Position numbers and translations under genes: made by a program. Positions 32,060 to 49,348 of a DNA stretch of 64,000 bases are shown here, in pieces. Every line of letters starts with the position of its first letter. Within the stretch, counting starts at the first letter, position 1. Source of the stretch: Mucilaginibacter tundrae (lineage in GTDB: Bacteria > Bacteroidota > Bacteroidia > Sphingobacteriales > Sphingobacteriaceae); NCBI RefSeq assembly GCF_013408825.1, contig NZ_JACCBZ010000003.1, positions 591,343 to 655,342 on the forward strand, in the 5' to 3' direction. Below the pieces are notes generated by a model. That model saw nothing but the letters and a program-made list of their open reading frames with translations. It was not told where the DNA came from and searched no databases.

Positions 32060-35000
32060 TTATTTAATCAACCATACCCTCATCAGGGATAAAAGCTGAT
32101 CGGTTTTGACCGGCTTGGTGATGTAGTCGGAAGCGCCTGAGGCGATACATTTTTGCCGATCACCGAGCATTGCTTTTGCTGTTACCGCAATGATTGGCAA
32201 AGCCTTGTTGCGCGGTTCCTTCCGGATGATCTGGATAGTTTCATAGCCATCCATTTCCGGCATCATAATATCCATCAGCACAATATCTATCGTTTTGTCT
32301 TTATTTAAAATCTCTAATGCTTCCCTGCCGCTTTCTGCCGTAACAACTTCGATCTTTGACCGTTCGAATACAGCGGTTAGCGCAAATAAATTACGTACAT
32401 CATCATCGACCACTAATACTTTTTTATTATCCAGTACATCAGTTTTGATACGCACCCCGTCGATCATCTTTAGCTTACTTTCGCTGATGTGTTTTTTATC
32501 GATGTGCAGCAAAACCAATATTTCTTCCAGTAGTTCAATGTGTGAAGTGGGCGTTTTGGTAATGATCTTATGATTCAAACGCTTTAGCAAAATCAATTCA
32601 TCTTGGGTAAAATCACGTGCAGAGTGTAAAATAATAGTGGACTGGGGATGTTTAAGCAAGTTTATTTTATTTAGCAGGTCTAATCCATTCGCATCAGGCA
32701 GAACAAAGTCGAGTATAATACAATCAAACATTTCCTTTTTCAGCGCTGAGAGGGCTTTTTTGGCAGTGGTAGCGCTGAATACATCAATCTTATCATTTGA
32801 TACAAGCTCTGTTAAACGTTGCAGCTCGGCTTCACTGTCTTCAATGATCAACACCTTACGTTTGGTGTACTCATGGAAATTTACAATACCAGTAATTAGT
32901 TCGTCCAAAGTTGTATTGGACAGCGGTTTCAGGCTAAACGATTTCGCACCAAATTTCATTGCTATCACTTTATTGTCCTCTCCAGAGATCACGTGTATCG
33001 GGATATGACGCAAATTAATATCTGTTTTCAGTAGTTTCAGTATTTTCCAGCCATTCGATTCCGGCATATTTACATCAAGCGTAATGGCAATCGGATTATA
33101 TTTAAGTATGCTTTCAAATATTTCAAGGTAACTAATGGCAACCACCACTTTTAAATTAAGGTCATGTGCTTTGTCGATCAAGATCTTGGTAAAACGTAGA
33201 TCATCTTCAACCACCAGTAATACTTTATCTTCATTGGCAATGTTATGGCGGTCATCATCCATGACCATTTCCGCGCTGTCGATCAAGTTGCTGCGTGAAT
33301 GTTGAACCGGGTAGTTTTCCTTAGGCGGGTTAGCTGATGATTTTTCCTCCTTGTATTTGAGCGGCAAAAACAAGGTAAATACGCTTCCTTTACCCAATTC
33401 ACTTCCAACGGTGATCGTACCGCCTAATAACTCTGCAAAGCCCTTGCTGATCGAAAGCCCGAGACCGGTTCCACCGTATTTACGGCTGGTCGATCCTTCG
33501 GCCTGTTGGAAAGCTTCAAAAATAATGCCTTGGGTATTTTTAGAAATTCCGATGCCTGAATCTTCAATGGAAAATGCAATAACCGAATCAGCGCTTCTTA
33601 ACGGATTATCCTGGCCTTGGGTAGGTTTGAAAATATGCAATTTCACACTTCCTTTTTCGGTAAATTTAAATGCATTGGATAACAGATTTTTTAAGATCTG
33701 GTTGAGCCGCTGCATGTCCGTCTCCATCATTTCAGGTAAGCCTTCTTGCAGGTCTATTTCAAATCTTAGATTCTTGGCTTCTGAAATAGGCTTGAAGGTC
33801 GATTCTGCAAATGAGGCGATCTCTTTAAAACTAACTGGCATCACATCGGCCGCAATAACGCCTGATTCTATCTTAGAAAGATCCAGGATGTCATTAATGA
33901 GTTGGATGAGGTCATCACCGCAGGAGTGGATCGTTTTCGCAAACATTCGCTGCTTCTCAGTTAAATTCCCTTCCGGATTTTCAAAAAGCTGTTGTGCAAG
34001 AATCAATAAGCTGTTTAACGGTGTCCGTAACTCGTGCGACATATTGGCCAGGAATTCTGATTTATATTTCGAGGTCAAGGTGAGTTGTTCGGCTTTTTCT
34101 TCCAGCGACCGTCCTTTATCATGCAGCTCATCATTCGCACGTCTTAACTCTTCCTGTTGTGCAGAAAGTTCGCCCGCCAATGATTGTGACTGGGAGAGGA
34201 GTTCTTCTGTACGCGTATTGGTTTCGATGTTATTTAACACAATACCAATACTTTCTGTCAGCTGATCTAAAAAGTCAATATGCGTGTCGCTGAAATTCTC
34301 AAATGACGCAAGTTCGATCACCGCTTTTACGTTATTTTCAAACAGTACGGGCAATATCACCAGGTCGATAGGCGCAGCATTGCCTATTCCTGAGCTGATC
34401 TGCAAATATTCGTTAGGCACATTAGCTAGTCTGATGCGTTCCTTATCAGTTGCGCACTGGCCAATCAATCCCTCACTCAACGAAAATTCCTGGTTGATCG
34501 ATTTCCGGCTCTTATGCGCATACCCTGCAAATAACTTTAATTTTACTTCATCTTCCGCCTCTGTTTGTTCCAATATGTAAAACGCTCCATAACGTGCATT
34601 TACCAATTCAGCCAACTCTGATAACACTTTATTTGCCACTGCATTACGGTCGCGTTGGCCCTGAAGCATCTGGGCAAATTTGGCGAGGTTTGATTTTAGC
34701 CAATCCTGCTCATGGTTCCTTAGGGTGGTACCTTTAAGGTTGGCGATCATTTGATTGATCGTATCTTTCAGCGCTTCCAACTCGCCTTTAGCGTCCACCC
34801 GAATGGTACGGGTAAGGTCACCTTTGGTCACGGCGGAAGCCACTTCCGAAATAGACCGCACCTGAACGGTAAGGTTTTGTGCCAATTGGTTCACGTTCTC
34901 GGTTAAGTCCTTCCAGGTACCTGAAGCTCCCGGTACACTTGCCTGGCCACCCAGACGTCCCTGTACACCCACCTCGCGCGCCACGGTCGTTACCTCATCC

Positions 35001-37708
35001 GCAAATACGGCGAGGGTATCAATCATTTCGTTAATTGTATCGGTAAGTTGAGCCACCTCACCTAATGCGTTAATAGACAAGCGTTGCTTTAAGTTCCCTT
35101 TCGCAATACCGGTAGCCACTTTCGCGATACCGCGTATTTGCCCGGTTAAGTTGGACGCCATTTGATTTACAGAGTCAGTTAAATCTTTCCAAGTACCGCC
35201 TACACCCTTTACGTGCGCCTGGCCGCCCAATTTACCCTCTGTACCCACTTCACGCGCAACACGTGTAACTTCCGATGCGAATGAGTTCAGCTGATCAACC
35301 ATCGTATTAATGGTATTCTTCAAATCCATGATCTCTCCCTTTACGTCGATGATTACCGTTTTGGAAAGGTCACCGCTGGCTACCGCTTTGGTTACCTCGG
35401 CTATATTACGTACCTGTGAAGTTAAGTTACTCGACATCTGGTTCACTGAATCCGTTAAATCCTTCCAGGTACCTGCAACACCCGGTACAAATGCCTGCCC
35501 GCCAAGGTTCCCGTCCGTACCAACCTCACGTGCCACCCGCGTTACTTCGGAAGCGAAACCACGCAACTGATCCACCATCGTATTGATGGTTTCTTTTAAC
35601 TGAAGGATTTCGCCCCTCACGTCAACCGTAATCTTTTTGGATAAGTCGCCATTTGCAATCGCGATGGATACATCTGCTATATTTCTTAATTGGGCGGTCA
35701 AATTGCCCGCCATCTTATTTACAGAGTCTGTTAAATCTTTCCAGGTACCATCCACACCGGGCACATTTGCCTGACCACCTAACTGGCCTTCAGAACCTAC
35801 CTCACGTGCCACACGCGTTACTTCGGACGCGAAACCACGCAGCTGATCCACCATGGTATTGATCGTATCTTTCAATTCCAATAACTCACCTTTTGCGTTT
35901 ACCGTGATCTTTCTGGAAAGGTCACCTTTGGCTACCGCTGTGGTTACTTCGGCTATATTACGTACCTGCGATGTCAAGTTATCTGCCATTTTATTAACAG
36001 AATCCGTCAAATCCTTCCAGGTACCACCTACGCCCGGCACATTTGCCTGCCCTCCTAATTGCCCTTCTGAACCCACCTCACGTGCCACACGTGTTACTTC
36101 AGAGCCAAATGAATTCAACTGATCCACCATCGTATTGATCGTGATCTTCAGCTCCAGCATTTCTCCCTGAACATCCACCGTGATCTTCTTGGATAAATCG
36201 CCTTTTGCCACCGCCGTGGTTACTTCAGCTATGTTTCTTACCTGTCCGGTCAGGTTACCTGCCATCTGGTTTACCGAGTCTGTTAAATCCTTCCAGGTAC
36301 CACCTACCCCCGGCACATTTGCCTGGCCGCCTAACTGGCCTTCCGAACCCACCTCACGTGCCACACGAGTCACCTCAAAAGAGAAGGAGTTGAGCTGATC
36401 CACCATGGTATTGATGGTGTTTTTCAGCTCTAATAATTCGCCTTTGGCATCTACCGTGATCTTCCGGGAGAGGTCACCCTTGGCTACTGCTGTGGTTACC
36501 CAGGCAATATTACGCACCTGGTCGGTAAGGTTACTTCCCATCTGGTTTACCGAGTCCGTCAGGTCTGCCCATACCCCACCTACACCTTTTACCTTGGCTT
36601 GTCCTCCTAGTTTACCTTCCGTACCTACCTCCAAAGCCACCCGGGTTACCTCGGAGGCAAATGAGTTCAGCTGATCCACCATCGTATTAATGGTTTTCTT
36701 TAATTCGAGCATTTCCCCTTTAACGTCAACCGTTATCTTTTTGGACAAATCGCCATTTGCTACGGCCGTTGTCACACCTGCTATATTACGTACCTGCGAG
36801 GTTAAGTTACCTGCCATACGGTTCACTGAGTCCGTTAAATCTTTCCATGTACCAGCCACACCCGGTACTTTCGCCTGGCCGCCCAGCTTTCCCTCCGTAC
36901 CTACTTCCAGCGCCACGCGGGTTACTTCAGATGAGAAGGAGTTGAGCTGATCCACCATGGTATTGATGGTGTTTTTTAGTTCTAATATTTCGCCCTTAGC
37001 CTCTACCGTGATCTTCCGGGAAAGGTCGCCTTTAGCTACCGCGGTAGTCACTGCCGCAACGTTACGTACCTGAGCGGTAAGGTTACCAGCCATTTGGTTC
37101 ACCGAATCAGTGAGTTCAGCCCATACACCGGCCACACCTTTGATCTTCGCCTGCTCGCCCAGTTTACCTTCTGATCCTACCTGCCGTGCTACCCGGGTTA
37201 CTTCCATTGAGAATAATCTTAGCTTGGAAAGCATTTGATTGGATTCTTTCGCTATGCGCAGGAATTCACCTTTTAAGGGATGGCCACTGATTTCCAATGG
37301 AATTTGTTTGGACAAATCACCGTTGGCTACAGAATTGATCATCCCGGCAATTTCCAGCGTAGGCGAAGTCAAATCAGAGATCAAATTATTCAGTGAGTTT
37401 ACTCCGCCAGCCCATTCACCCTTGGCATCTGGCAGCTCTATTCTTTTCGACAGATTGCCACGTTTACCGATCGTCATTTCCGCCGATGAGATTTCTGTAA
37501 CCAGCCGCTGGTTCATTTCGATAATGTCGTTTAACACCTCGCATATCCGGCCATTAATACCGGCTTGCGTGACCGGCATGCGGACATCCAGTTTTCCGTT
37601 TTTAACTAAAGAAAGAACCTTTAAGAGTTCTTTTACATCAAGGGAATCGTCTTTGCCATTTGCGTGTGACGATGACTTTACTGGAATTTTAATAATTTCC
37701 TGTTCCAT
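32060..37708 (-). CDS. Giant poly-HAMP hybrid histidine kinase with GAF and three receivers
   Basis: 1882 residues, no signal peptide or membrane span, so cytoplasmic. About ten tandem 92-residue HAMP units (about 110-990) each carry G-D-L-S-x-K-I-T-V and E-V-G-x-E-G-x-L-G-G-Q-A. Then come a GAF domain (about 1030-1170), a coiled coil, HisKA with H1225 in N-M-S-H-E-L-R-T-P, HATPase with G-G-T-G-L-G-L-S, and three receivers with D in L-D-V-N-M-P, L-D-F-V-L-P and M-D-I-M-M-P. The layout resembles the poly-HAMP group III kinases of fungi (Nik1/Os-1), which respond to osmotic stress; that function is not shown here. It is followed at 53 bp by a receiver-kinase gene, probably its partner. Confidence 0.92.
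34740..37370 (-). repeat. Tandem 276-bp HAMP-encoding repeats
   Basis: About ten in-frame units of 276 bp (92 codons) inside the giant kinase gene. Neighbouring units are very similar in DNA, for example GTACCTGGAAGGA-type segments recurring once per unit. Unit number could change by recombination, and assembly of this stretch is error-prone. The units also create a series of spurious open frames on the opposite strand. Confidence 0.85.
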
Positions 37709-38609
37709 AGGGGTATGCGTTCAAATTGCTATAAGTGGTAGATTACCTTAAACAAGAGCACAACATTCAGCATTGAGATTCGTTTAATGGCCAAGTAAAT
37801 ATATAGAATAAATAATTTCCTATAAATAGAATCAATCAAAAAAAACTGCAATAGTTGCCCCTACAGCACACAATCCACTAGTATAACACAGGGTCAATAA
37901 TCGATTTCATGAACAAACACTATAATACACGGCCTGACAGGTTTTATTGTATTTTGAGCAACTCAAAAAGCGTATTGCAGCATATTTAATGATACCAGCT
38001 TAGTGCCAGTCTTTTTTTATTTTACGATTGTTAAAGAGGTCCTAAACATCGTAGAACAAACTTTCAGCGATCAACGGTTCACGCAAGCCCTTAATCAAAT
38101 AAATATCATTAAAAAAGATTATTTCATTAGAATAAGAATCGTTTTTTTTACAATGCACACATCTTCTTTGAATCATGAAGTTTGAACTCATATATATTAA
38201 ATTTTCAAAATCTAATCAGAATTGAACATTTAACATATGAAAATTATGTATTGGACATCCCCTGTTATTTGCCGATACAGAAAGTAAAACTGTGTTATAT
38301 ATCAATCACTTAGACTACTCTAGTTACAAACTAGTAACAACACTGTTTACTTGTATACTTCAGTATCGATATATTTTAACACAATTATATAGTTGGCAGT
38401 AAAATCTACTGATAGAAAGTTCTTATTAATTTTTTGCGAAGTCGCTTTATTTTACTTTATAATTTATGGTTTATCTCAATATATGTAAATCTATTACTAT
38501 ATTTAATATCTTTCCTACAACAAAATCAACCATATAAGTTTTCAACATTAAATTCTTCGATTTAAATGATTAATATTAATTTAGATTATTAATCTTTATC
38601 ACTAAACTT
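37709..38609. other. 901-bp AT-rich intergenic region at the island's left side
   Basis: No gene is supported. A 60-codon frame at 38003-38185 has no family resemblance. From about 38100 the sequence becomes clearly more AT-rich than the kinase genes to the left, with many A and T runs, which fits the start of transferred DNA. No clear promoter box, hairpin terminator or RNA gene was seen. Confidence 0.4.
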
Positions 38610-39008
38610 ATGGACGTCAGTAGTGTACATGCTTTGGCGACAGGTGCAAATGTAAGAATCACTTGGAGTATTGCTTTAATTGGTGGAAGTTTAGCAACTA
38701 TTTTTAGCACTTCTTATGTTAAACCGTTCAACAAGTGGCTTAAATTAATTTATTTAATTTTTCTACCAGCATGGCTTTACCTTGCCGATGCAATAAGAAC
38801 CGGGGATATTATTTCTAGACTTGATATTGGTGCTATTTTAAATCCAAATCGAATACCAATGATTTTTGGAGAAATTAATAAAGAATATAATGATCAACTA
38901 GTTAGTTTTAACATCGCATTAGTCCTTTTGGGGATCTGGTTAATTGTGTTTCTATTATCTTGGGTTTTCAACGATTTTTTCTCAAAAAACAAACTGTATG
39001 AAAAATAG
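38610..39008 (+). CDS. Small hypothetical membrane protein
   Basis: 132 residues, not recognised. Hydropathy suggests three membrane spans: about 18-34 (W-S-I-A-L-I-G-G-S-L-A-T-I), 43-62 (L-K-L-I-Y-L-I-F-L-P-A-W-L-Y-L-A) and 100-122 (F-N-I-A-L-V-L-L-G-I-W-L-I-V-F-L-L). A loop of about 35 residues lies between the second and third. The gene overlaps the next start by 11 bp, so the two are translated together. Codon use is AT-rich compared with the kinase genes. No function can be assigned. Confidence 0.6.
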   Translation: MDVSSVHALATGANVRITWSIALIGGSLATIFSTSYVKPFNKWLKLIYLIFLPAWLYLADAIRTGDIISRLDIGAILNPNRIPMIFGEINKEYNDQLVSFNIALVLLGIWLIVFLLSWVFNDFFSKNKLYEK

Positions 39009-39825
39009 ACTATTGATTTTTGTATTACTGTTGATTACCAAGATATGTTTTGGACAAGACTGTAATTGTGATTTGCCTCCCTTTAATAACGACTGTTATA
39101 ATGTCTGCAAGGTTAAAATACTACAATCAGGATCAAAAAGTCAACTAATAAACACTTTTCATATTAATTCTAAAACAGCTGAAAAAATAGAAAAAATCCC
39201 GAATAGAAAAAAGTTAAATTCAATTACCAATCTTAAACAATATCTTTCAAGAAATTCATATAACACTTTCATAACTAATGTTACTAAGTATTATATAATT
39301 GATTCGCAAACTCAATCTGGGCCTATTCAAACCCAGAAACAAGATCCACCAAAACCTCAAATTTCAAAGGATTTTAGTGATTTTGTGGCTTTGATGCCTA
39401 GAACGTTACACTGTAAAATTGATTATTCTAGTAATGCCCCCTTTGTAAATGATGGAATTATAAACCTTGATTATAAAAATGGTGAATTAATAGTTAAAGG
39501 AAATTTAGACTACGAAACAACTGATAAGTTTAATTTTAAAACATCGATTCGAGGTACATTTGAAGGAAATTATTTTTTTAAATCCGATGAAATGCTTTTT
39601 GAATTTAGTGGTCCTGGAGAACCGTTACCTGATCGACTAAAATGTAAAATTATTATACACGGTACATTTAATTTCGTTGAAAATTCAAGTGAGCCTAAGC
39701 AATTCGCCTTTAATTATCTTTACTTATATATCACTGATTTAAACAGAATTCGTTGCGAATTTGATGATAGAACATATTACGATGATAGAATGACAAGCTA
39801 TTTACAACGGATTAATTATCAATGA
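38998..39825 (+). CDS. Hypothetical secreted protein
   Basis: About 275 residues from the ATG at 38998, which gives a signal peptide (M-K-N-R-L-L-I-F-V-L-L-L, ending F-G-Q); the frame extends 18 codons upstream without a signal. The mature N-terminus is cysteine-rich (D-C-N-C-D-L, N-D-C-Y-N-V-C). The C-terminal two thirds alternate in beta-strand fashion, with no family I can name. It is coupled to the small membrane protein gene by an 11-bp overlap. The pair lies at the left of the defence-type island. Periplasmic or surface location is predicted; function is unknown. Confidence 0.6.
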   Translation: MKNRLLIFVLLLITKICFGQDCNCDLPPFNNDCYNVCKVKILQSGSKSQLINTFHINSKTAEKIEKIPNRKKLNSITNLKQYLSRNSYNTFITNVTKYYIIDSQTQSGPIQTQKQDPPKPQISKDFSDFVALMPRTLHCKIDYSSNAPFVNDGIINLDYKNGELIVKGNLDYETTDKFNFKTSIRGTFEGNYFFKSDEMLFEFSGPGEPLPDRLKCKIIIHGTFNFVENSSEPKQFAFNYLYLYITDLNRIRCEFDDRTYYDDRMTSYLQRINYQ

Positions 39826-39898
39826 TTTTTACTTTGTAAAAAATCTATTTATATTAACTGTTAAAGCCAATTTAATTTTAAGCCGGTTACCTATAAAT

Positions 39899-39918
39899 TA
39901 AGTACCTCCGGCTCCACA
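39899..39918. other. tmRNA/tRNA 3'-end-like sequence, possible attachment site
   Basis: CCTCCGGCTCCACA in this stretch resembles the T-stem plus acceptor 3' strand of a tmRNA or tRNA gene. No matching 5' acceptor or T-loop is present, so it is not a gene. Genomic islands often leave such a duplicated 3' end as an att site, and this one sits at the edge of the CBASS island beside a strong hairpin. Weak, single-copy evidence. Confidence 0.25.
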
Positions 39919-39930
39919 ATCATTTAAATA

Positions 39931-39971
39931 AAAAATGCTCTTATATCTTATTATATAATAAGAGCATTTTT
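39931..39971. terminator. Bidirectional hairpin terminator
   Basis: AAAAATGCTCTTAT (39931-39944) pairs perfectly with ATAAGAGCATTTTT (39958-39971), giving a 14-bp stem with a 13-nt loop and T runs on both strands. It lies between the plus-strand secreted-protein gene and the minus-strand channel gene, and can terminate both. Confidence 0.8.
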
Positions 39972-40086
39972 TATGCATTTAAGGAATTATGGGGTGTAAA
40001 AAGGGGTGCATATTATAATCCTAAAATCCACACTATTTCAATATCTAACTTAAGGCCAGAATATTATTATTTATATTCCTATTTAT

Positions 40087-41208
40087 TTAAAACCGAAGAA
40101 TACGACGTAAAAACAAAGCCACGGCTGCACTAGATATACTAAAACCCATTAACTGTAACAGCATAACCACACTTTTGGCCCCTGGACTCTTAGGGAAAAG
40201 GTCACCATACCCTACGGTTAGCATAGTTGTATGATTAAAATATAGAAAATTACCAATTCGGGGCCAGACACCCATAGTCTTACTTATGCCATTGAACTCA
40301 AATGGTAGAAATGTAAACAACAGCGCAAATATAAAATTGGTCAATAATAAAAGCCACACTAAACGCCAAGGTCGTTCACCATAACCAGTAAAAAACCAAT
40401 ATGCCCAGTTGGCGATTGGCTTTTTTCTCAATTTAATTTTATAATATTCAGAAAGCTGCTGTTCGTAACTATCGAAAAAACCAGCATCACGTGATACCAG
40501 GACTGACTGCAGCGCTAAGAACTGAATGAAATACGTAAATTTTTCTTTATATTCCGGCTGCAGTGCCTTGTAGGCATTTTTAGTTACACTAACAAAGTCA
40601 ACGTAGGTAGCTGCGGAGAACTGTTTGATAGTTTCAAACTGTTCCGAATATTGTTCATAAATAATTTTAAGTTGCCCCATTTGCGCATATGAATTTCCCA
40701 CCTGCAGATATGCCAAGTATTCCATTTCCTTTTGCAGCCAATAGTTAAGGCTTTTAATGACTTGAACTGGATCATCACCTTGCTCTAATTGCTGAGTTGT
40801 TTTTGAAATCATCACATTTTCAAGTTTATTCATGATCTTCTCCCTATATTCTTGTTCAAAACTTGCTTCGCCTGTAATTGACAATAAAGGGAAGAAATAT
40901 ATACTATCAGCTGAAATAACGTCCTCATCAAGTGGTAACAAACTATCAAAAACTAGCTGCCATAACGATTCTATCTCCGATCGCTTTGTAGATAGGTCAA
41001 CCACTGTATCGATGAGGTATTGAATTCGACCCTGAAACTCATTGAAAAGTTGGTCGTCACCAATAAATGCAAACGGAAATTTTGCTTTATAAAGTGGCAA
41101 GTATTGGTCGTAAGTTACATTAATCCACGCTTTGTTCACCTCCCTTTTTAACAGTGGCGTAAAAGGTTGATTCCTATTTTTTTTAAAAATATTTAACATC
41201 TTCAGCAA
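40087..41208 (-). CDS. Two-TM potassium-channel-like protein in the CBASS operon
   Basis: 373 residues. The first 280 are soluble, acidic and helical, with no family I recognise. Then follow TM1 (about 282-303), a pore loop with the exact K+ selectivity filter T-V-G-Y-G-D at 331-336, and TM2 (about 344-367), ending in a basic R-R-I-L-R-F tail. This is the Ion_trans_2-type pore of two-TM potassium channels. The gene starts 24 bp after the TIR-STING stop, same strand, so it is very likely co-transcribed with the CBASS genes. It might be an added pore-forming effector or an ion-flux partner triggered by the system. Both are inference; it could also be an unrelated passenger. Confidence 0.8.
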   Translation of the reverse strand: MLKMLNIFKKNRNQPFTPLLKREVNKAWINVTYDQYLPLYKAKFPFAFIGDDQLFNEFQGRIQYLIDTVVDLSTKRSEIESLWQLVFDSLLPLDEDVISADSIYFFPLLSITGEASFEQEYREKIMNKLENVMISKTTQQLEQGDDPVQVIKSLNYWLQKEMEYLAYLQVGNSYAQMGQLKIIYEQYSEQFETIKQFSAATYVDFVSVTKNAYKALQPEYKEKFTYFIQFLALQSVLVSRDAGFFDSYEQQLSEYYKIKLRKKPIANWAYWFFTGYGERPWRLVWLLLLTNFIFALLFTFLPFEFNGISKTMGVWPRIGNFLYFNHTTMLTVGYGDLFPKSPGAKSVVMLLQLMGFSISSAAVALFLRRILRF

Positions 41209-41232
41209 TTAAAGAAATAAGATATCTATGTA

Positions 41233-42198
41233 TTAGATATCAACTATTTCAGTTTCAACAATATTCTTGGTTATAGAGCTTTTTTTAATTAAGTAATCCA
41301 ACGTTTTTTTAAAGTTTCTGATCTCACGATATTCAAGTAGGGTTTCTCTTTCGGATTTACCTAAATGATGTTTAGAAGAGTAAAGCTCAATTGCCATATT
41401 AAGCGCGTTAAGAGTGTAAGGTATATCTACAAGGTGTAATTCACCGTTTGTAGCCTTTGATACATCTATAGAAAAATCATAATCACGAACATGCTTTGGA
41501 TCTACCTTCAACTTTTGCCAGCCGTCCTGTAATCGTTTACTAACAACCTTTTTAAACATATCATCGCTTAGGTCATTAGGAAGTAGAATAGTAAACTTCA
41601 AACTTTTTATAACAAATTGCTGATCGTTTTGAATGGTAAATTCTTTTAATTCCGCTTTATCCTCTAATAGCCGCTCAACAGTTTTTTCAACAAAATTGTT
41701 AAAATACCCATATGCCAAAACGGTAGATGGAAGAAAACCAAGATCAAAGGTGGTTTCCTTATCAAGGATATGTTTCTTGATATCATCAATGCAGCTATCC
41801 AAAGATGACGCAAAATCAGCGCTAACATATTTTGATACAGTTGGAAATGTGATGCCCAACAAATCGCTCGGTATTTTAATTCCCTTTTCAAGAACATATA
41901 AAGCCCGGTCACGCCCTAGCCCACCAGCGAACATGCCAAATTCGAATAAAACATTATCCCGTACGCCTTTAACTGTTTTCTTTCTCGAAGTAACAATGTC
42001 ATCGGCGGTAGCAATCATAACAGCATAATCGTACAATGCAATTTGAGTTATCAAATTTTCATAATTGCTTTTTCCAATATCAAATGCTCTTGTCCACAAT
42101 TTGATTTCTGCGATATCTTTTAGGCCATTTCTAATGCCCTCAGCTATTGGTAGTCCCTCTTTGGAAGATCCAATAAATATGTGTGGTTTCAGTTCCAT
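41233..42198 (-). CDS. TIR-STING fusion, CBASS effector
   Basis: 321 residues. Residues 1-150 form a CAP12/TIR-like NAD-hydrolase domain: H-I-F-I-G-S-S-K-E-G, then D-N-V-L-F-E-F-G-M-F with predicted catalytic E86. Residues 155-321 have the size and motifs of a prokaryotic STING domain: L-A-Y-G-Y-F-N-N-F-V, and V-D-I-P-Y-T-L with D258 and T262, the D-x-x-x-T spacing used by bacterial STING to contact cyclic di-GMP. In known TIR-STING systems nucleotide binding drives filament formation and NAD+ depletion, killing the infected cell. The start is 1 nt after the E2-like gene stop. A SAVED sensor is less likely given the short C-terminal domain. STING is assigned from motif and size, without alignment. 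Confidence 0.78.
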   Translation of the reverse strand: MELKPHIFIGSSKEGLPIAEGIRNGLKDIAEIKLWTRAFDIGKSNYENLITQIALYDYAVMIATADDIVTSRKKTVKGVRDNVLFEFGMFAGGLGRDRALYVLEKGIKIPSDLLGITFPTVSKYVSADFASSLDSCIDDIKKHILDKETTFDLGFLPSTVLAYGYFNNFVEKTVERLLEDKAELKEFTIQNDQQFVIKSLKFTILLPNDLSDDMFKKVVSKRLQDGWQKLKVDPKHVRDYDFSIDVSKATNGELHLVDIPYTLNALNMAIELYSSKHHLGKSERETLLEYREIRNFKKTLDYLIKKSSITKNIVETEIVDI

Positions 42199-42199
42199 G

Positions 42200-42631
42200 T
42201 TATATTTTTTTATGGTCTACATAAGGATGCAGCCATTTTCCTTTTAATAAATAAAGCTCATAATAAAGGTACCATTCGTGAGTCCACGGTATTATAGTAT
42301 TGAACAAATGCAGTCTATCCGTAAAACTAAAATCCTTAGGATAATAAAGGCAGAGGCTATTATCACTACTATACATATGTATATCGTCATGGTACTCTAT
42401 TTTGGGTTTTTTAGTAAATACCTTTGGTTTCATACCGGGACTAAACCGAAGCTCATATTCATAAATTTGAGAATATTCACTTGGTTGACAGTATCCTTTA
42501 ACAAACAGGGTATTTTCTTGGATAGTGATCGTCAAAAAATCATAAGCTTTTTCAAGTAAATGTCTTTCCTGATATAAAACTTTTATCGGATTAATCCCTT
42601 TCTTAGGCATAAAGTAGTTTTTAGCCGCCAT
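42200..42631 (-). CDS. E2-like conjugating protein of short type II CBASS
   Basis: 143 residues matching the small bacterial E2-like family of CBASS: H-M-Y-S-S-D-N-S-L-C-L-Y-Y-P with predicted catalytic C94, then T-I-I-P-W-T-H-E-W-Y-L-Y-Y-E and G-K-W at the C-terminus. No E1 or JAB-peptidase gene is present, which defines the short type II layout. In such systems the E2 acts on the glycine-ended C-terminus of the CD-NTase and controls its activity. Here the CD-NTase does end in Gly-Gly, and its GGC GGC codons overlap the E2 start codon. Both flanking genes are coupled to it (11-bp overlap upstream, 1-nt gap downstream). Confidence 0.78.
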   Translation of the reverse strand: MAAKNYFMPKKGINPIKVLYQERHLLEKAYDFLTITIQENTLFVKGYCQPSEYSQIYEYELRFSPGMKPKVFTKKPKIEYHDDIHMYSSDNSLCLYYPKDFSFTDRLHLFNTIIPWTHEWYLYYELYLLKGKWLHPYVDHKKI

Positions 42632-43634
42632 AATTTCGATGCCCTAAATGTGGAGTTCCCGAAATAGAATTAATGCTACCGCTCCTACCTAAGTAGGCAC
42701 CACTGGCAACTGTACTGGCTGAAGCTAAAAGTTTTTCAGCACGTTTTTCATCTTCTTCATTCAAGCCTTCAGGAAACCTATCACCAAGATATTTACGCCA
42801 TATTTTAGATGCTTTTAGTTGATCGGTTTCATCTATTGCTTTTTGGGCGTGATCACAAAACATTTTAAGTTCTTCTATGAAATTATCCTTCTGAACCTTG
42901 GTTAGCTTAGCTGTTAAATCATCAAATGGCTCCACCGGCGCATAACAAGTGACAGAATATTGTACTGCGGATTTGATGGCATTTAACAATTTCAATAAAC
43001 ATTTGTCATCATTTTCAGCGTCAATGGAAAAATGCCTTGCTGTCCATACTGCAAGGGCTATTCCGCTTGGCATTTTACCATTAGCTTTACGTTTTGATGT
43101 CCACCCTTTAAGATATTTAATCATCCTGATATACTGCCCGTTACTATCTTTATATTTCTCTAACCAAGTAATCATATGCCAAGGGTCATCCTTCGTCCAA
43201 TCCTGGCCTTTTACTGCCATATAAGCAAAGTCTTCATCGGCAATTTCGTAGTAAGCAGGAAAATCAATATTATACTCACACTGAAATATAACCCGGACAC
43301 ATTTCTTTCGATGTTGGGCGCCTTCTTTTGTATGATCTTTTACCGCATCGCGAATGTACCCTTGCACCGTTTCTCCGCTCACACTTGGCTTGCTTAGCAA
43401 ATACACTCCCCTGTCCGAATCGAAGGATCCATCTTCTTTAATAATGATCGTCTTCATTTTGTGTGCATCAGAACCCTGAGTGTAAAATGTAACGCGCATC
43501 CCCAATTTCTCAAACAGTGTGTTTGCTATTTTCACTTCAAGTAGTTGGCGAGAAGTTTTCATTTTTTGGCGTTGAGTTGCTGTCGGGGTAATCTCCTTGT
43601 TATAGTCTAAAAATAGTTTGTGACAGTTTGCCAT
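42621..43634 (-). CDS. CD-NTase (cGAS/DncV-like cyclic oligonucleotide synthase), CBASS
   Basis: 337 residues from the ATG at 43634 (M-A-N-C-H-K-L-F); the 12-codon upstream extension lacks family features. Nucleotidyltransferase core: Q-G-S at 53-55, F-D-S-D-R-G-V-Y-L with D72 and D74 as metal ligands, and I-D-F-P-A-Y-Y with D124 as the third acid. The helical C-terminal region ends in a flexible Ser/Gly-rich tail finishing N-Y-G-G. Enzymes of this type make a cyclic nucleotide after phage sensing. With a STING receptor downstream, cyclic di-GMP is the likely product, though the sequence alone does not prove it. First gene of the operon, reading away from a strong palindrome. Confidence 0.85.
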   Translation of the reverse strand: MANCHKLFLDYNKEITPTATQRQKMKTSRQLLEVKIANTLFEKLGMRVTFYTQGSDAHKMKTIIIKEDGSFDSDRGVYLLSKPSVSGETVQGYIRDAVKDHTKEGAQHRKKCVRVIFQCEYNIDFPAYYEIADEDFAYMAVKGQDWTKDDPWHMITWLEKYKDSNGQYIRMIKYLKGWTSKRKANGKMPSGIALAVWTARHFSIDAENDDKCLLKLLNAIKSAVQYSVTCYAPVEPFDDLTAKLTKVQKDNFIEELKMFCDHAQKAIDETDQLKASKIWRKYLGDRFPEGLNEEDEKRAEKLLASASTVASGAYLGRSGSINSISGTPHLGHRNYGG

Positions 43635-43687
43635 AGTTTTAGTATTAGTTGTTAGTGATTGATAAAACAAAGTAACATATTTTTTAT

Positions 43688-43713
43688 TTATACAAACAAG
43701 TTTGTTTGTATAA
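43688..43713. promoter_or_regulatory. Strong palindrome in the CBASS/STAND divergent promoter region
   Basis: Perfect 12-bp arms TTATACAAACAA and TTGTTTGTATAA flank a 2-nt centre. The right half is echoed by a further half-site (TTTGTTTATATAAATTT, 43717-43733). It sits 54 bp upstream of the CD-NTase start and 64 bp upstream of the STAND ATPase start, so one dimeric regulator could control both. No regulator gene is adjacent. Confidence 0.65.
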
Positions 43714-43777
43714 ATTTTTGTTTATATAAATTTCTGTAATAGTAAAATAGGCTTTATATTTGAATAACTCTAAGCTT

Positions 43778-46700
43778 ATGAATCAGAATGAAAACGTTGC
43801 TGTTAACAGCCTTTATTACTTTAACGCCCATACAAAAAATGACGAGGATGTAGTAAACACCTTTATAGCTCGGAAACCCTTATTGAAAAGCCTTGAAGAT
43901 AGTATAGATAAGGAAAGAGGAAATACTGTACCGAAGCACCTTATGATAATTGGTAGCCGAGGAATGGGCAAAAGCACCTTACTTAGGCGTTTGGAAATTT
44001 CAATCAGAAAAGGGGATTTAAATAAAAGATTCATACCAATTCTATTTCCAGAAGAGCAATATAATATTGACCGGCTATCAAAATTTTGGTTGAACAGCTT
44101 AGATTCCCTTGCTGATAATTTTGAGGAAGAAAAAAACTTTGCAGAAACAGATTATTTAGACGATCTAATTAAGGAGTTAACATCTCTTAAAGGCGAAAAA
44201 GAAATATCTGAAAAAGCCTATTTCGCACTATTGGAAATATGTAAAAAATACAATCGTAAACCAGTGTTTCTTATTGACAATTTTGATATTCTATTTGATG
44301 GAATTTCAAAAGAACAACAAACTACATTATACGGTATCATAACATCTAACCAGTCACCAATTTTTATAGGAGCATGTTCATATAATCCAATCGAAGACGT
44401 AAGTTATGATAGCATGTTTTATGATGTATTTGAAAACATCATTTTAGATCGGCTTACTCAAACAGAAATGCGAGAATTATTGCTGCTATTGGCTGATAAA
44501 ACCGGAAAGGGCGATGTATTTGAAGATATATATAATAAGACTGCTCAACTTGATGCTTTACATAGTCTTACTGGCGGAAACCCACGAATAGCAGTTTTTA
44601 TATTTCAACTTCTTGCTAACGGTTTATCAGAAAAAATTTTTGAAAATTTAAATGCATTATTGGATTTAATAACCCCCTTATATAAAAGTAATTTCGAACA
44701 ACTTTCCAAACAATCGCAAGTAATTGTTGACGCACTTGCACTAAATTGGGATCCTTGTGATCTCGATCAATTACATTTTATTACCAAACTTGAAAACAAT
44801 CAGCTATCGGCCCAACTTGACCGATTAATTAAGGCTGGTTGGATTGACCGATCAAATCGTTATTCCGAAGAAAAAAACAAAATAGTTTTAAAAATAAAAA
44901 ACTATAGCATTCGCGAACGTTTTTTTAACATTTGGTACATAATGAGGCGGGCAAGTCGACGACAAAGAGGTGATTTAAAAAGTTTGACTTGCTTTTTAGA
45001 AACCTTTTACACACCGCAACATTTAGCAATAGAAAAGTTGAGAATAATCAAGTTACTGAAAGAAAAACTTGATCCTGATAAAATCACTTATGGATTAGCA
45101 CTTTCTCGTGCCTACAATCGTGACGGTAGTAGTGATCTTGAAAACAATATTTATCTTGAAATATTAGAACAAACAGAAGGCAATTTGTCCGAGGTTGCGA
45201 AATATATGAACCCGGATAATATACCAGACAATATATTTAATGATTTTTTTAATGCAGAAGGAAAACGCTGGAGAGATCACATTCAGCGCCTATTTAGTCA
45301 AAAAGAATTTCAAAAAGCCCGTCAATTTATCACGTCAGTATTAAATAAGCGTCCTAATAATGGTTTTGCACTACGAAAAATGGCGGATGCTTATTTTCGA
45401 GAAGGACTTTATTCTGAAGCAACTCTAGCATACAGAAACGCTTTAAAAATAAATCCTAATGATAGTATGAGTTGGATTGGGATTGCATCAATTCAAGAGC
45501 TCAATAATGATGATATTAGTGCAGAAGAAGCCTATAAACATGCATTGGATCAAGGCAATGATGTTACGTACTTTAAATATCGTTACGCTTCTTTTTTAAG
45601 AAAGAACATGCGTTATGATGAAGCTGAAAATATAGTTCTTGAAGCGTTAGAGACGAGTCCTGGCGATAACTTCGGTGAATTTTTACTTATAGCAATTTAT
45701 ATTGACCAGAAACGAATTGATGAGGCTGAAAAATTAGCTGATGAGTGTTTTCATTCTAAAAAGGAAGATAAAGAACACATCAACTTAATCCATTTTTTAA
45801 TGGCTATCGCATATAAAGATACCGACCGGGTCCAACGAGCAATTGAAGAATTTCAACAAATACTTGGTGGTCAACTTTATGAAAATCCCAGTTTTTGGTT
45901 TTATTACGGTGAAGCATTAAAACTGACAAACCAGAATGAAGAAGCAGAAGATGCCTATAGACAGGTTATCAAGTTTGCTCCTGATAATGTTAATTACTTA
46001 TTTACGATTGCAAATTTTTTAAAAGAAAAACGTTTCAAATATGGTGAAGCCGAAACCATATTTAAACGTCTATCCATATTAGACCCGAAAAATCCTGATG
46101 TTTGGATAGCTCTTGGTGATAGCTATACACATCGTGGCATTTATAAAAAAGCTGGAGTGGCATTCAAAAAAGCAACACAAGTTGCACCTGAATATGGCAA
46201 ATCATGGGGGGTGTTAGGAATATCCTATCAATATTTAAATGACGAACCGCAAAAGGCTTCCGAAGCGTATATTCAATGCTTAAAGATTAACCCCAATATA
46301 GAATCCATTTGGGAAGCCTTAGCAGACTTAAATCATTTTAGTCTTAAATCTTTTAAAAATGCCGAAAATGCTTATGTAAAAGCTTTGGAAATTAATCCTA
46401 CAAACAATAACGTATTATCAAAGTATTTGATGATGCTTATCAGAAGTGATGATAATAATTCTGCAATATCCGTTTTTGAGAAATATCGTGAAAGTATTAA
46501 ATTAAACCCATTCATTTTCGCGTTGCAAGAAGCATTATTTGCAATTAACAAAGATAACAATGGTGATGCTTCTAATTCATGGCTTGCTGCAATAACAAAT
46601 ATAAACCTGACAGAGGAGTCTTTAGATCTTATCAAATATGCGGCCGCTATTAGTGTTATGAAAGGCTTCGGAAACAGATTATTAGATGTATTTAAAAAAT

Positions 46701-46846
46701 CGCAAGGAAAGCAGCATTTGAGACCTTTATTTGAAGCCATCAAAACATTAGTTCTTTCCAATCCAGAATATTTAAATAATATTGCGGAAGAAATTCGCGA
46801 AACGGCACAGACAATTTATAAGGACATGACTTTGTATATAAGTTAA
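43778..46846 (+). CDS. STAND-like P-loop ATPase with C-terminal TPR array
   Basis: 1022 residues from the ATG at 43778; a TTG 18 bp earlier is less likely. Walker A G-S-R-G-M-G-K-S at 59-66, Walker B V-F-L-I-D-N-F-D at 163-170. A helical lid and winged-helix-like region (about 290-420) follow, then about a dozen TPR units (about 515-940; A-L-K-I-N-P-N and A-L-E-I-N-P-T repeats). This is the signal-transducing ATPase layout used by many phage sensors, with TPRs as ligand detector. Unlike Avs-type proteins it has no N-terminal nuclease, TIR or other effector domain, so it may need a partner. Divergent from the CBASS operon across the palindrome at 43688-43713. Confidence 0.75.
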   Translation: MNQNENVAVNSLYYFNAHTKNDEDVVNTFIARKPLLKSLEDSIDKERGNTVPKHLMIIGSRGMGKSTLLRRLEISIRKGDLNKRFIPILFPEEQYNIDRLSKFWLNSLDSLADNFEEEKNFAETDYLDDLIKELTSLKGEKEISEKAYFALLEICKKYNRKPVFLIDNFDILFDGISKEQQTTLYGIITSNQSPIFIGACSYNPIEDVSYDSMFYDVFENIILDRLTQTEMRELLLLLADKTGKGDVFEDIYNKTAQLDALHSLTGGNPRIAVFIFQLLANGLSEKIFENLNALLDLITPLYKSNFEQLSKQSQVIVDALALNWDPCDLDQLHFITKLENNQLSAQLDRLIKAGWIDRSNRYSEEKNKIVLKIKNYSIRERFFNIWYIMRRASRRQRGDLKSLTCFLETFYTPQHLAIEKLRIIKLLKEKLDPDKITYGLALSRAYNRDGSSDLENNIYLEILEQTEGNLSEVAKYMNPDNIPDNIFNDFFNAEGKRWRDHIQRLFSQKEFQKARQFITSVLNKRPNNGFALRKMADAYFREGLYSEATLAYRNALKINPNDSMSWIGIASIQELNNDDISAEEAYKHALDQGNDVTYFKYRYASFLRKNMRYDEAENIVLEALETSPGDNFGEFLLIAIYIDQKRIDEAEKLADECFHSKKEDKEHINLIHFLMAIAYKDTDRVQRAIEEFQQILGGQLYENPSFWFYYGEALKLTNQNEEAEDAYRQVIKFAPDNVNYLFTIANFLKEKRFKYGEAETIFKRLSILDPKNPDVWIALGDSYTHRGIYKKAGVAFKKATQVAPEYGKSWGVLGISYQYLNDEPQKASEAYIQCLKINPNIESIWEALADLNHFSLKSFKNAENAYVKALEINPTNNNVLSKYLMMLIRSDDNNSAISVFEKYRESIKLNPFIFALQEALFAINKDNNGDASNSWLAAITNINLTEESLDLIKYAAAISVMKGFGNRLLDVFKKSQGKQHLRPLFEAIKTLVLSNPEYLNNIAEEIRETAQTIYKDMTLYIS

Positions 46847-46878
46847 ACAAACCAGTGCTTATAAATATTGTGGAGATA

Positions 46879-47475
46879 CTAAATTTTAAGTTTTTTAACT
46901 TTCATTACAGTTGTTGAAGACACTCCAACAATTTTGCCTATTTCCCTAACTGTTAAACCTTTATCCAAACATTTGCTAATTTGTTTGGATAAAGGTTTGT
47001 TTAGAAAGTCAAAGATTTGTTCATTCGTTCCTTTAGGTCGACCTAATATTCCCCCATTTTGAACATAAACTATTCTACCTACCGTCGTGCGTTCCTTAAT
47101 ATTCTGAAGCTCCATTTCATATAAAGATGACATAATAGAAGATATCATTTTCCAAATTGGGTTTTTTATTCCGTTAGGCCGGGATTGTAAGCCTACGTTT
47201 CTAACAGTCACATTAATATTCATTTGGTCTAACCAATCAAGGGTATTAATTACATCGCCAGTGTTACGACCTAATCGTGAAAACTCTTCAACTACTAAAT
47301 CATTTACTTTACCAGCTTCGATAAGCTTTATTAACTGTAAACTTTGTGGTCTTTCTTTAAAAGCTACGTTGCCTGAAATTTTATCAAGCAAAATTAGGTC
47401 GTATTTGTCCGTATCATTTATAAACCTATTACCTGACTGTCCAATGGTGCTTACTCGGTTATATTTTACTCGCAT
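46879..47475 (-). CDS. Serine site-specific recombinase (resolvase/invertase family)
   Basis: 198 residues, typical of small Pin/Hin-type invertases and resolvases. N-terminal catalytic domain with nucleophile S9 in Y-N-R-V-S-T-I-G-Q-S, then V-V-E-E-F-S-R-L-G-R-N and E-L-Q-N-I-K-E-R-T. A C-terminal HTH (L-T-V-R-E-I-G-K-I-V-G-V-S-S-T-T-V) binds the recombination site. Such enzymes invert or excise DNA between short inverted or direct repeats. A pair of perfect 14-bp inverted repeats lies directly upstream (47519-47638), so an invertible segment is the obvious target. It faces away from the DprA-like gene. Otherwise it could serve as the resolvase of a mobile element. Confidence 0.9.
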   Translation of the reverse strand: MRVKYNRVSTIGQSGNRFINDTDKYDLILLDKISGNVAFKERPQSLQLIKLIEAGKVNDLVVEEFSRLGRNTGDVINTLDWLDQMNINVTVRNVGLQSRPNGIKNPIWKMISSIMSSLYEMELQNIKERTTVGRIVYVQNGGILGRPKGTNEQIFDFLNKPLSKQISKCLDKGLTVREIGKIVGVSSTTVMKVKKLKI

Positions 47476-47518
47476 TTTGTGTTAGTTTTTGTCTGTGATT
47501 AAATCTAATACATAAGTG

Positions 47519-47638
47519 CGATTCTTGGAACGGGCAAGCGCAGGCTATTGGCAATAAGGCTGTGTTAGTTTTAATTATAATTAATTGTAATACAAGTTAT
47601 TATATTTAAAAAAGTAAAAATAGGCGTTCCAAGAATCG
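47519..47638. repeat. 14-bp inverted repeats bounding a 92-bp segment; candidate invertible switch
   Basis: CGATTCTTGGAACG (47519-47532) and CGTTCCAAGAATCG (47625-47638) are perfect reverse complements. The 92 bp between them lie in the promoter space between the divergent recombinase and DprA-like genes, and are AT-rich on the DprA side and more GC-rich on the recombinase side. Inversion by the neighbouring serine recombinase would swap any promoter between the two genes. The arms are too far apart for a simple terminator. Confidence 0.65.
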
Positions 47639-47654
47639 GTTATTATGGATAGAT

Positions 47655-47684
47655 TAATAACAGGAATTATAACTCCTGTTATTA
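47655..47684 (+). promoter_or_regulatory. Hairpin/palindrome ending on the DprA-like start codon
   Basis: TAATAACAGGA (47655-47665) pairs with TCCTGTTATTA (47674-47684) as an 11-bp perfect stem with an 8-nt loop. The last base is the A of the preferred ATG at 47684. It may act as an operator or as mRNA structure that limits translation. It also argues against the upstream ATG (47645), whose codons would run through the stem. Confidence 0.55.
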
Positions 47685-48601
47685 TGAAATTTAAAATCGA
47701 AAAGCAATTTATCATCGCATTACTTCACCTGCCGGGAATCAAAAGAAAAACGGCTTATAAACTACTTGTAAATTTAGATAGGGATATTCTTTCACTCGGT
47801 GAATTAATTGAATACCTATCTGACAAAGGGGATATAAAATTAAAATCAACCCTCTCAATTGATGATTTTGACAACGCATTAAAAGTCGCCTGGCAGATTC
47901 TTCAACAATCGGCCACCTATAATATTAAAATGGTATCTGTTTTAGATGATGACTACCCTAAGTTATTAAGGCAATCTAATGATCCACCTGTAATATTAAA
48001 CTATATAGGCGACATTACTTTATTGGGCAGTAAACCAACAATTGCAATAATAGGCACCCGTGATCCTTCACCTTATGGTGAAAGATATGCAAAATTTGTA
48101 TCAGACTTTTTTGTAGGAAAGGGCTTTAATATAGTAAGCGGATTAGCTAAGGGTTGTGATACTGCTGCACACTTAGGTGCTATCGCCGCTAATGGCGTTA
48201 CGAGCGCAGTGTTAGCGCATGGCTTAGATAAAGTATACCCAAAAGAAAATAAGGCCTTAGCAGATCAAATAAAACAATGTGGTGTACTTGTTTCGGAATA
48301 CTTTATTGGCACACAAATGTCAAAGAAAAATTTTATTGAACGGGATAGAATACAGGCAGGTTTAAGCTTAGGAACTTTTATAGTTGAATGCACGATTGGC
48401 AGCGGTACAATGCATACCGCAAAATATACAAAAGATTATGAGCGTGTATTGGCTGTGATGAAACCACCTCTTAGGGATTATAATGAAACAAGGGTTAGCG
48501 GCAATCAAATGTTAAGTCAAACCGGAAAGGCTGTTGCAATTTGTGATAACTACGAATTAAAAAATTTAAGCATAGTTTTATTATCGAATCAAGCAAATTA
48601 G
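47684..48601 (+). CDS. dprA-like: DprA/Smf-like Rossmann-fold protein
   Basis: 305 residues from ATG 47684. The N-terminal helical part (about 1-75) is followed by the DprA Rossmann domain: I-A-I-I-G-T-R, S-G-L-A-K-G-C-D-T-A-A-H-L-G-A-I, A-H-G-L-D-K-V-Y-P-K-E-N. Then comes F-I-E-R-D-R-I-Q-A-G-L-S where DprA has R-N-R-I-I-A-G-L-S, and G-S-G-T-M-H-T-A. DprA binds single-stranded DNA and loads RecA during transformation. This copy lacks the usual C-terminal winged helix and lies beside a recombinase and a CBASS locus, so it is probably an accessory, defence-linked paralogue rather than the housekeeping DprA. Expression may be switched by the inverted-repeat segment upstream. Confidence 0.85.
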   Translation: MKFKIEKQFIIALLHLPGIKRKTAYKLLVNLDRDILSLGELIEYLSDKGDIKLKSTLSIDDFDNALKVAWQILQQSATYNIKMVSVLDDDYPKLLRQSNDPPVILNYIGDITLLGSKPTIAIIGTRDPSPYGERYAKFVSDFFVGKGFNIVSGLAKGCDTAAHLGAIAANGVTSAVLAHGLDKVYPKENKALADQIKQCGVLVSEYFIGTQMSKKNFIERDRIQAGLSLGTFIVECTIGSGTMHTAKYTKDYERVLAVMKPPLRDYNETRVSGNQMLSQTGKAVAICDNYELKNLSIVLLSNQAN

Positions 48602-48639
48602 ATAATTTTTAAGTATAGTAGAATTAATTTAAGGTGACC

Positions 48640-48925
48640 ATCTATGTGATTTTTCAGCCAATGGGTCAACGGTTGTCCATCTCGTAATCACCGGATCATA
48701 GGCCTTGCGCAATAATCGTATTGCGTCAACTCACTCTGTAATTCTTTTTTATTGTAAAGACAAAGATTTGAACTTTGAATTGTAAGGTAATCTAATCCAA
48801 AGGGATAATAATCATCTTCACTAGTTTTGCCATTTATCACGTCAAAAGTCGCCCAGTTATTACCTAGGTGATCCGTTAAAGCATATTCATAATTATAAGT
48901 ACCACCGGAGTAGCTTTAAATAAAC
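48640..48925 (-). pseudogene. Degraded fragment of an RHS core (C-terminal tip)
   Basis: The minus strand reads G-G-T-Y-N-Y-E-Y-A-L-T-D-H-L-G-N-N, then E-D-D-Y-Y-P-F-G-L-D-Y, L-Y-N-K-K-E-L-Q-S-E-L-T-Q-Y-D-Y. A small deletion shifts the frame before Y-D-P-V-I-T-R-W-T-T-V-D-P-L-A-E-K. The same order occurs in the intact RHS gene at about 50095-50385, to which the DNA is clearly related. It is a displaced RHS tip, as left when toxin tips are exchanged by recombination. The rest of the gap 48602-49096 shows no gene. Confidence 0.8.
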
Positions 48926-49096
48926 GGTGATTAATCAAAGTCTCGGTAAAATCTGAAGTGTACTGAGAAATCTTGAAAATTAACAAAATTTCAACCTTCA
49001 TAGCTGATTGTAAACAGAAAGAGTCTAAACATTACTTTGAGTCCCATCGAAAAGACAATTGGACTCGTACAAAATCAAGTTTTACTATTAATCTAA

Positions 49097-49348
49097 TTAT
49101 CTATAAAGTAAATCAATTAAATTTTCCAATATCTTCCCTGAATCATTTAATTCGTATTCGATATCAAAACCAACTTTAATCTGCATTTCAATACACCATT
49201 CTCGTAGTTCTTCAATAAAGTCTTCGTCAAGATCAAAGATTAATTGTTCAATATAACCTTTCTGTAAAATTTCCCAATAATCAACCCTGTCTTTTGAAAG
49301 AACGGTTTGTAAATATTGATATTGATCTTGTTTAAATATTATTTTCAT
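49097..49348 (-). CDS. Small acidic protein, candidate immunity to the RHS toxin
   Basis: 83 residues, acidic, no signal peptide, no family I recognise. Its ATG overlaps the RHS stop by four bases (ATGA), so it is translated together with the toxin gene. Small acidic cytosolic proteins encoded directly after the variable tip of RHS or contact-dependent toxins usually neutralise that toxin. The assignment rests on position, size and charge only. Predicted mostly helical (I-L-Q-K-G-Y-I-E-Q-L and F-I-E-E-L-R-E-W-C stretches). Confidence 0.55.
   Translation of the reverse strand: MKIIFKQDQYQYLQTVLSKDRVDYWEILQKGYIEQLIFDLDEDFIEELREWCIEMQIKVGFDIEYELNDSGKILENLIDLLYR

Follow-up and report, generated by a model that had tools for sequence, protein, structure and literature searches.

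A predicted K+ channel gene at the end of a TIR-STING-containing type II-short CBASS operon in Mucilaginibacter tundrae

The CBASS operon and its surroundings

The stretch of DNA analysed (the window) comprises 64,000 nucleotides of Mucilaginibacter tundrae contig NZ_JACCBZ010000003.1. On its minus strand, genes for a CdnB-like cyclase, an E2-like protein, a TIR-STING effector and, last, a channel-like protein follow one another closely: the cyclase and E2 genes overlap by 11 nt, E2 and STING are separated by 1 nt, and STING and the channel by 33 nt. The CD-NTase (42621..43634; 337 aa from ATG) matched a PADLOC cyclase model (3.6e-97), and its nearest solved relative is CdnB from B. fragilis (BfCdnB; 7LJO, 2.3e-52), to whose DLD motif its DSD motif aligns; we take this Asp pair to be the active site. 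PMC10442399, which is also the source of the clade name, reports 3'3'-cGA (3'3'-cGAMP) as the main product of BfCdnB and locates Asp238 in lid 3. Counting along the 7LJO alignment, this residue appears to be kept in the window enzyme as FDDL. The E2-like protein (42200..42631; 143 aa) matched a PADLOC E2 model (1e-48) and aligns to the E2 chain of 8hsb (3.4e-9), with conservation of the Cys in LCLYYP; neither E1 nor JAB was matched among the other operon ORFs and the flanking ORFs scanned. The TIR-STING protein (41233..42198; 321 aa) contains a prok_STING domain (2.9e-31) and a CAP12 TIR domain (8.3e-26), which place it among cyclic-nucleotide-sensing effectors. It is closest to the Cap12 entries 9lmq (5.3e-57) and 7un8 (1.9e-46), and R238, D258, and T262 are invariant in an alignment of seven STINGs. 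Because a CdnB-like cyclase, an E2, and a Cap12-like TIR-STING were all matched, the operon is assigned by these matches to type II-short CBASS with a TIR-STING effector.

Beyond the 3' end of the channel gene, a perfect 17-bp hairpin with a 13-nt loop and T-rich arms (39928..39974, minus strand; -17.6 kcal/mol, z -5.4) is likely to act as a bidirectional terminator; it was missed by a consensus terminator scan because that scan considers loops of ≤8 nt. A weaker hairpin, which has no U-tract, is found at the STING/channel junction (41214..41250, minus strand; -12 kcal/mol and z -2.0 in a 66-nt stretch) and could reduce read-through from STING into the channel. Between the CD-NTase gene and a divergently transcribed ATPase gene lies a perfect 14+14 bp inverted repeat with 2 nt between its arms (43686..43715), one arm of which is copied at 43718-43731 with 93% identity; this repeat is a candidate operator for shared control of the divergent genes. 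Judged from sequence, the channel is most likely co-expressed with the CBASS operon.

The divergent gene (43760-46846, plus strand) encodes a 1028-aa AAA/STAND-like ATPase with TPR repeats; its PADLOC matches are weak (PDC-S27, 3e-5; mad8, 8e-5), and it may act as a sensor or be a defence gene in its own right. The region from 37709 to 49300 is low in GC (0.331, against 0.400, 0.454, and 0.376 in its surroundings) and also holds a recombinase gene of the resolvase family (46879-47475) and a gene of the DprA family (47645-48601). A minus-strand gene (32060-37708) encodes an 1882-aa protein in which many repeats of ~92 residues, followed by kinase and receiver-like parts, were recognized by eye; we take it to be a HAMP-type hybrid histidine kinase.

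The channel protein and its family

The channel gene (40087..41199, minus strand) encodes 370 aa from a probable ATG at 41199, and an alternative TTG start at 41208 would give 373 aa (frame 40087-41208). A helical N-terminal domain (residues ~1-270) is followed by TM1 (residues 277-297), a pore helix (residues 311-327), the filter TVGYGD (residues 328-333, between the two TM helices), and TM2 (residues 339-369), with the chain ending in ...LFLRRILRF. The structural model is confident; its N-terminal domain is all-helical with zero strands, and its pore fold resembles those of solved K+ channels in structure comparison, as is characteristic of a 2TM K+ channel (Ion_trans_2). By pore sequence and model, the gene is thus predicted to encode a two-helix K+ channel with a canonical pore. 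Together with the operon position, these features confirm the preliminary description of a TVGYGD channel-like gene in line with a STING-CBASS operon. The soluble N terminus, which had been called unrecognized, indeed gave no family match over ~270 residues, every model in the family and PADLOC scans falling below the cut-off, and a fold search with the model returned no informative or convincing match for the helical domain. Tetramerization and K+ selectivity would be expected of such a sequence, and K+ efflux is a prediction from the filter alone.

The channel family is very rare: 11 distinct proteins were found in a set of 5.8 billion, a number that includes the window protein and a fragment of 202 aa. 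A profile scan of genome contigs (genome_contigs; 84,980 species), seeded from two short conserved patterns, yielded 41 loci, 15 of which were read. Among these were one full-length relative (L003; 37% identity to the window channel) and one distant relative (L004; 24% identity, alignment A2); at the remaining 26 loci, the match is confined to residues 275-370. In whole-genome searches, the channel was found once among 199 relatives and once among 395 class genomes, in both cases in the window's own genome, and in the order of L003 it was found in 1 of 298 genomes, that of L003 itself. Conservation across the family includes the terminal pore, a GYGE(x)P motif ahead of TM1, and several N-terminal positions. 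One distant member, P0011 (423 aa), carries additional hydrophobic sequence at its N terminus, and its filter is degenerate, with ISNLYGN instead of TVGYGD, so that it may not be K+ selective. Another soluble-domain-first channel design was seen in two Salinivirgaceae proteins (L021 4172-5932 and L033 8549-10366), in which a long repeat-like N-terminal part precedes a terminal pore domain and the chain likewise stops just past the last helix.

Gene neighbourhoods of channel relatives, STING and CdnB

Gene neighbours were read for the window, L003, and the distant L004, leaving out 9 of the 11 family proteins (P0002, P0003, and P0005-P0011). Defence genes adjoin the channel at all three readable loci, STING at the window only, and for the window and these two relatives, the channel family is defence-associated. 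The channels of L003 and L004 adjoin restriction-type genes, not CBASS. In L003, the channel lies mid-operon: ahead of it are an SNF2 helicase (DrmD-like, 330 bits) and a type IIG R-M gene (1754 bits), and behind it come TmtA (1047 bits), a DruE-like helicase (343 bits for the portion covered), and a UvrD-type helicase (GajB-like, 114 bits). The channel is 30 nt from the type IIG gene and 16 nt from TmtA, which is the Tiamat protein. The large operon with these components was read at L003 2245-21068 and L132. At its start, the L004 channel gene shares 4 nt with a type-IIG-like nuclease-coupler gene, whose 321-aa product matches a type IIG enzyme in the N-terminal third of the latter and has an ISP coupler domain.

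These neighbourhoods bear on whether the gene is an ordinary ion-homeostasis channel that came to lie beside the CBASS operon by chance within the island. Ion_trans_2 channels are common (11 of 14 control genomes), the other STING operons examined do not have a channel gene, and the gene lies in a low-GC island that encodes a recombinase; nevertheless, a family so rare and patchy is not housekeeping-like, and the close relative in L003 is embedded mid-operon among defence genes. We regard a chance neighbour as distinctly unlikely.

Of 395 phylum genomes, 16 carry prok_STING, at 17 places with that of the window; of 305 class genomes, 12 carry it, at 12 places that add 8 to the set. All 24 places other than the window were examined, some being shortened by contig ends. 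An ORF matching the window TIR-STING at E < 1e-3 was present in 15 of these (weakly in L149) and missing from nine. None of the 24 carried a pore-motif ORF, in line or otherwise, with the limits that the motif would not detect a channel whose filter differs and that some stretches end at a contig edge; on this count, a STING-dedicated CBASS component is not supported. A CdnB-like cyclase is present in 24 of 395 genomes, at 26 places in all, and the analysis covered 19 of the 25 outside the window, leaving out the six weakest (E 2e-24 to 1.4e-16). No in-line pore-motif ORF was found at any of these 19, where a channel with a different filter would again escape the motif; L125 contained a single TVGYGH ORF, 6.4 kb off and on the opposite strand. 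In the 17 of these 19 in which the cyclase was located with that of the window, STING was absent among the genes listed beside it.

Two loci combine TIR-STING with a CdnB-like cyclase matching PADLOC PDLC00774: L148 (5832-8318; 364 bits), with an E2 that belongs to another PADLOC E2 model, and L146 (6688-8551; 307 bits). Neither has a channel. TIR-STING may pair with clade-B-like cyclases more often than described. Because the control places, L148, and L146 have no channel, the channel is best read as an addition to a core that also occurs on its own. The count of in-line pore-motif genes came to zero in both control sets. Of the gated K+ pore suggested in the preliminary description, the tie to defence is supported by the operon position, the hairpin terminator, the canonical pore, and the two relatives beside defence genes, whereas a link to STING or NAD+ depletion in particular is not supported, given these zero counts, L148, and the restriction-type neighbours of the two relatives.

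STING, SAVED, CARF, SLOG, and macro sensors differ from a strandless, all-helical domain such as that modelled for the channel N terminus. This difference argues against a dedicated second CBASS effector, that is, a channel opened by the cyclic dinucleotide, by a product of NAD+ breakdown by TIR-STING, or by contact with the STING filament, as do both control sets and the relatives, which accompany restriction-type genes with no known cyclic dinucleotide product. Adjacency to STING in the same operon is in its favour, as are the CBASS membrane effectors Cap13, Cap14, and Cap16 (PMC10419184), and we consider a dedicated effector unlikely, with a small but real chance. Alternatively, the channel may be a brake or repair module, with K+ flux limiting CBASS toxicity or retuning the membrane potential after partial activation. 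A channel gene placed behind the effector suits an optional regulator, and PMC12421889 describes the accessory Cap proteins in type II-IV CBASS as possible regulators, but no sequence feature suggests protection and the family is also found with unrelated systems; we think a brake very doubtful.

Proposed role and comparison with known systems

The explanation to which we give about even chances is a portable defence K+ channel that is gated via its N terminus and has been added to a type II-short CBASS as a membrane-directed abortive arm. The channel would form a tetrameric-type, K+-selective 2TM pore, with the tetramer and selectivity presumed from the pore sequence and model, and its sole regulatory part would be the cytosolic all-helical domain joined to TM1. 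Its family, which is very rare, would accompany phage-defence genes, as at the window and in the two readable relatives, and the channel would have joined a CdnB-type, E2-containing CBASS operon with a TIR-STING effector as its last gene, probably being expressed together with it. An infection cue would be sensed by the helical domain, probably through a protein partner, and would open the channel; the resulting K+ outflow would cause loss of membrane potential and turgor, providing a second, membrane-directed abortive arm alongside NAD+ loss. A stand-alone sensor-plus-pore is favoured over gating by a CBASS signal because the channel is partnered with restriction systems too, not just with CBASS, and it would accordingly be a portable defence add-on and not a dedicated STING partner. 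More tentatively, and with somewhat less than even chances, a K+-selective channel is proposed as an immune effector, a stand-alone sensor-plus-pore mobile between CBASS-STING and type IIG R-M/TmtA/Druantia-like operons, whose controlled K+ efflux would stop infection.

If true, selective K+ conductance would join the effectors of bacterial immunity, and a small, testable system would be at hand for the opening of a K+ pore by a soluble sensor of infection. K+ efflux takes part in animal inflammasome signalling, which would be one parallel. Another would be the proton-channel activity of human STING, noted in PMC12421889.

The window holds a CBASS operon that unites a clade-B-like cyclase, an E2, a TIR-STING, and a channel. 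The titles and abstract starts of the literature matches listed mention no K+ channel encoded within CBASS or STING operons, in agreement with the earlier statement that no described STING system with such a channel was known, and the channel family added to this CBASS operon was not found described among them. Operons of CdnE and TIR-STING (Cap12) likewise have TIR-STING beside a CD-NTase, with the same three invariant STING residues, whereas the window has a CdnB-like cyclase, an E2 gene, and the predicted K+ channel after them; CdnE is the cyclase of the described TIR-STING operons according to PMC12421889. A CdnB-like cyclase and an E2 are likewise found in type II-short CBASS with the arrangement CapV-like (patatin-type), CdnB-like, E2 (L114, L115, L117, and L118). 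In these, the upstream gene was named by eye from its DGGGIKG/DGGGIRG motif and is presumably patatin-type; the window effector is a TIR-STING plus the channel instead of a patatin phospholipase. Cap13, Cap14, Cap15, and Cap16 are likewise membrane proteins encoded in CBASS operons. These Cap effectors combine TM segments with STING, SAVED, or NUDIX parts, as described in part in PMC10419184, whereas the window channel pairs its K+ selectivity filter with a helical domain unrelated to those parts. Its pore fold and filter are shared with the prokaryotic 2TM K+ channels KirBac, KcsA, MthK, and the SthK pore, but unlike these it has no C-terminal gating domain: its soluble domain is N-terminal, and the chain stops after TM2.
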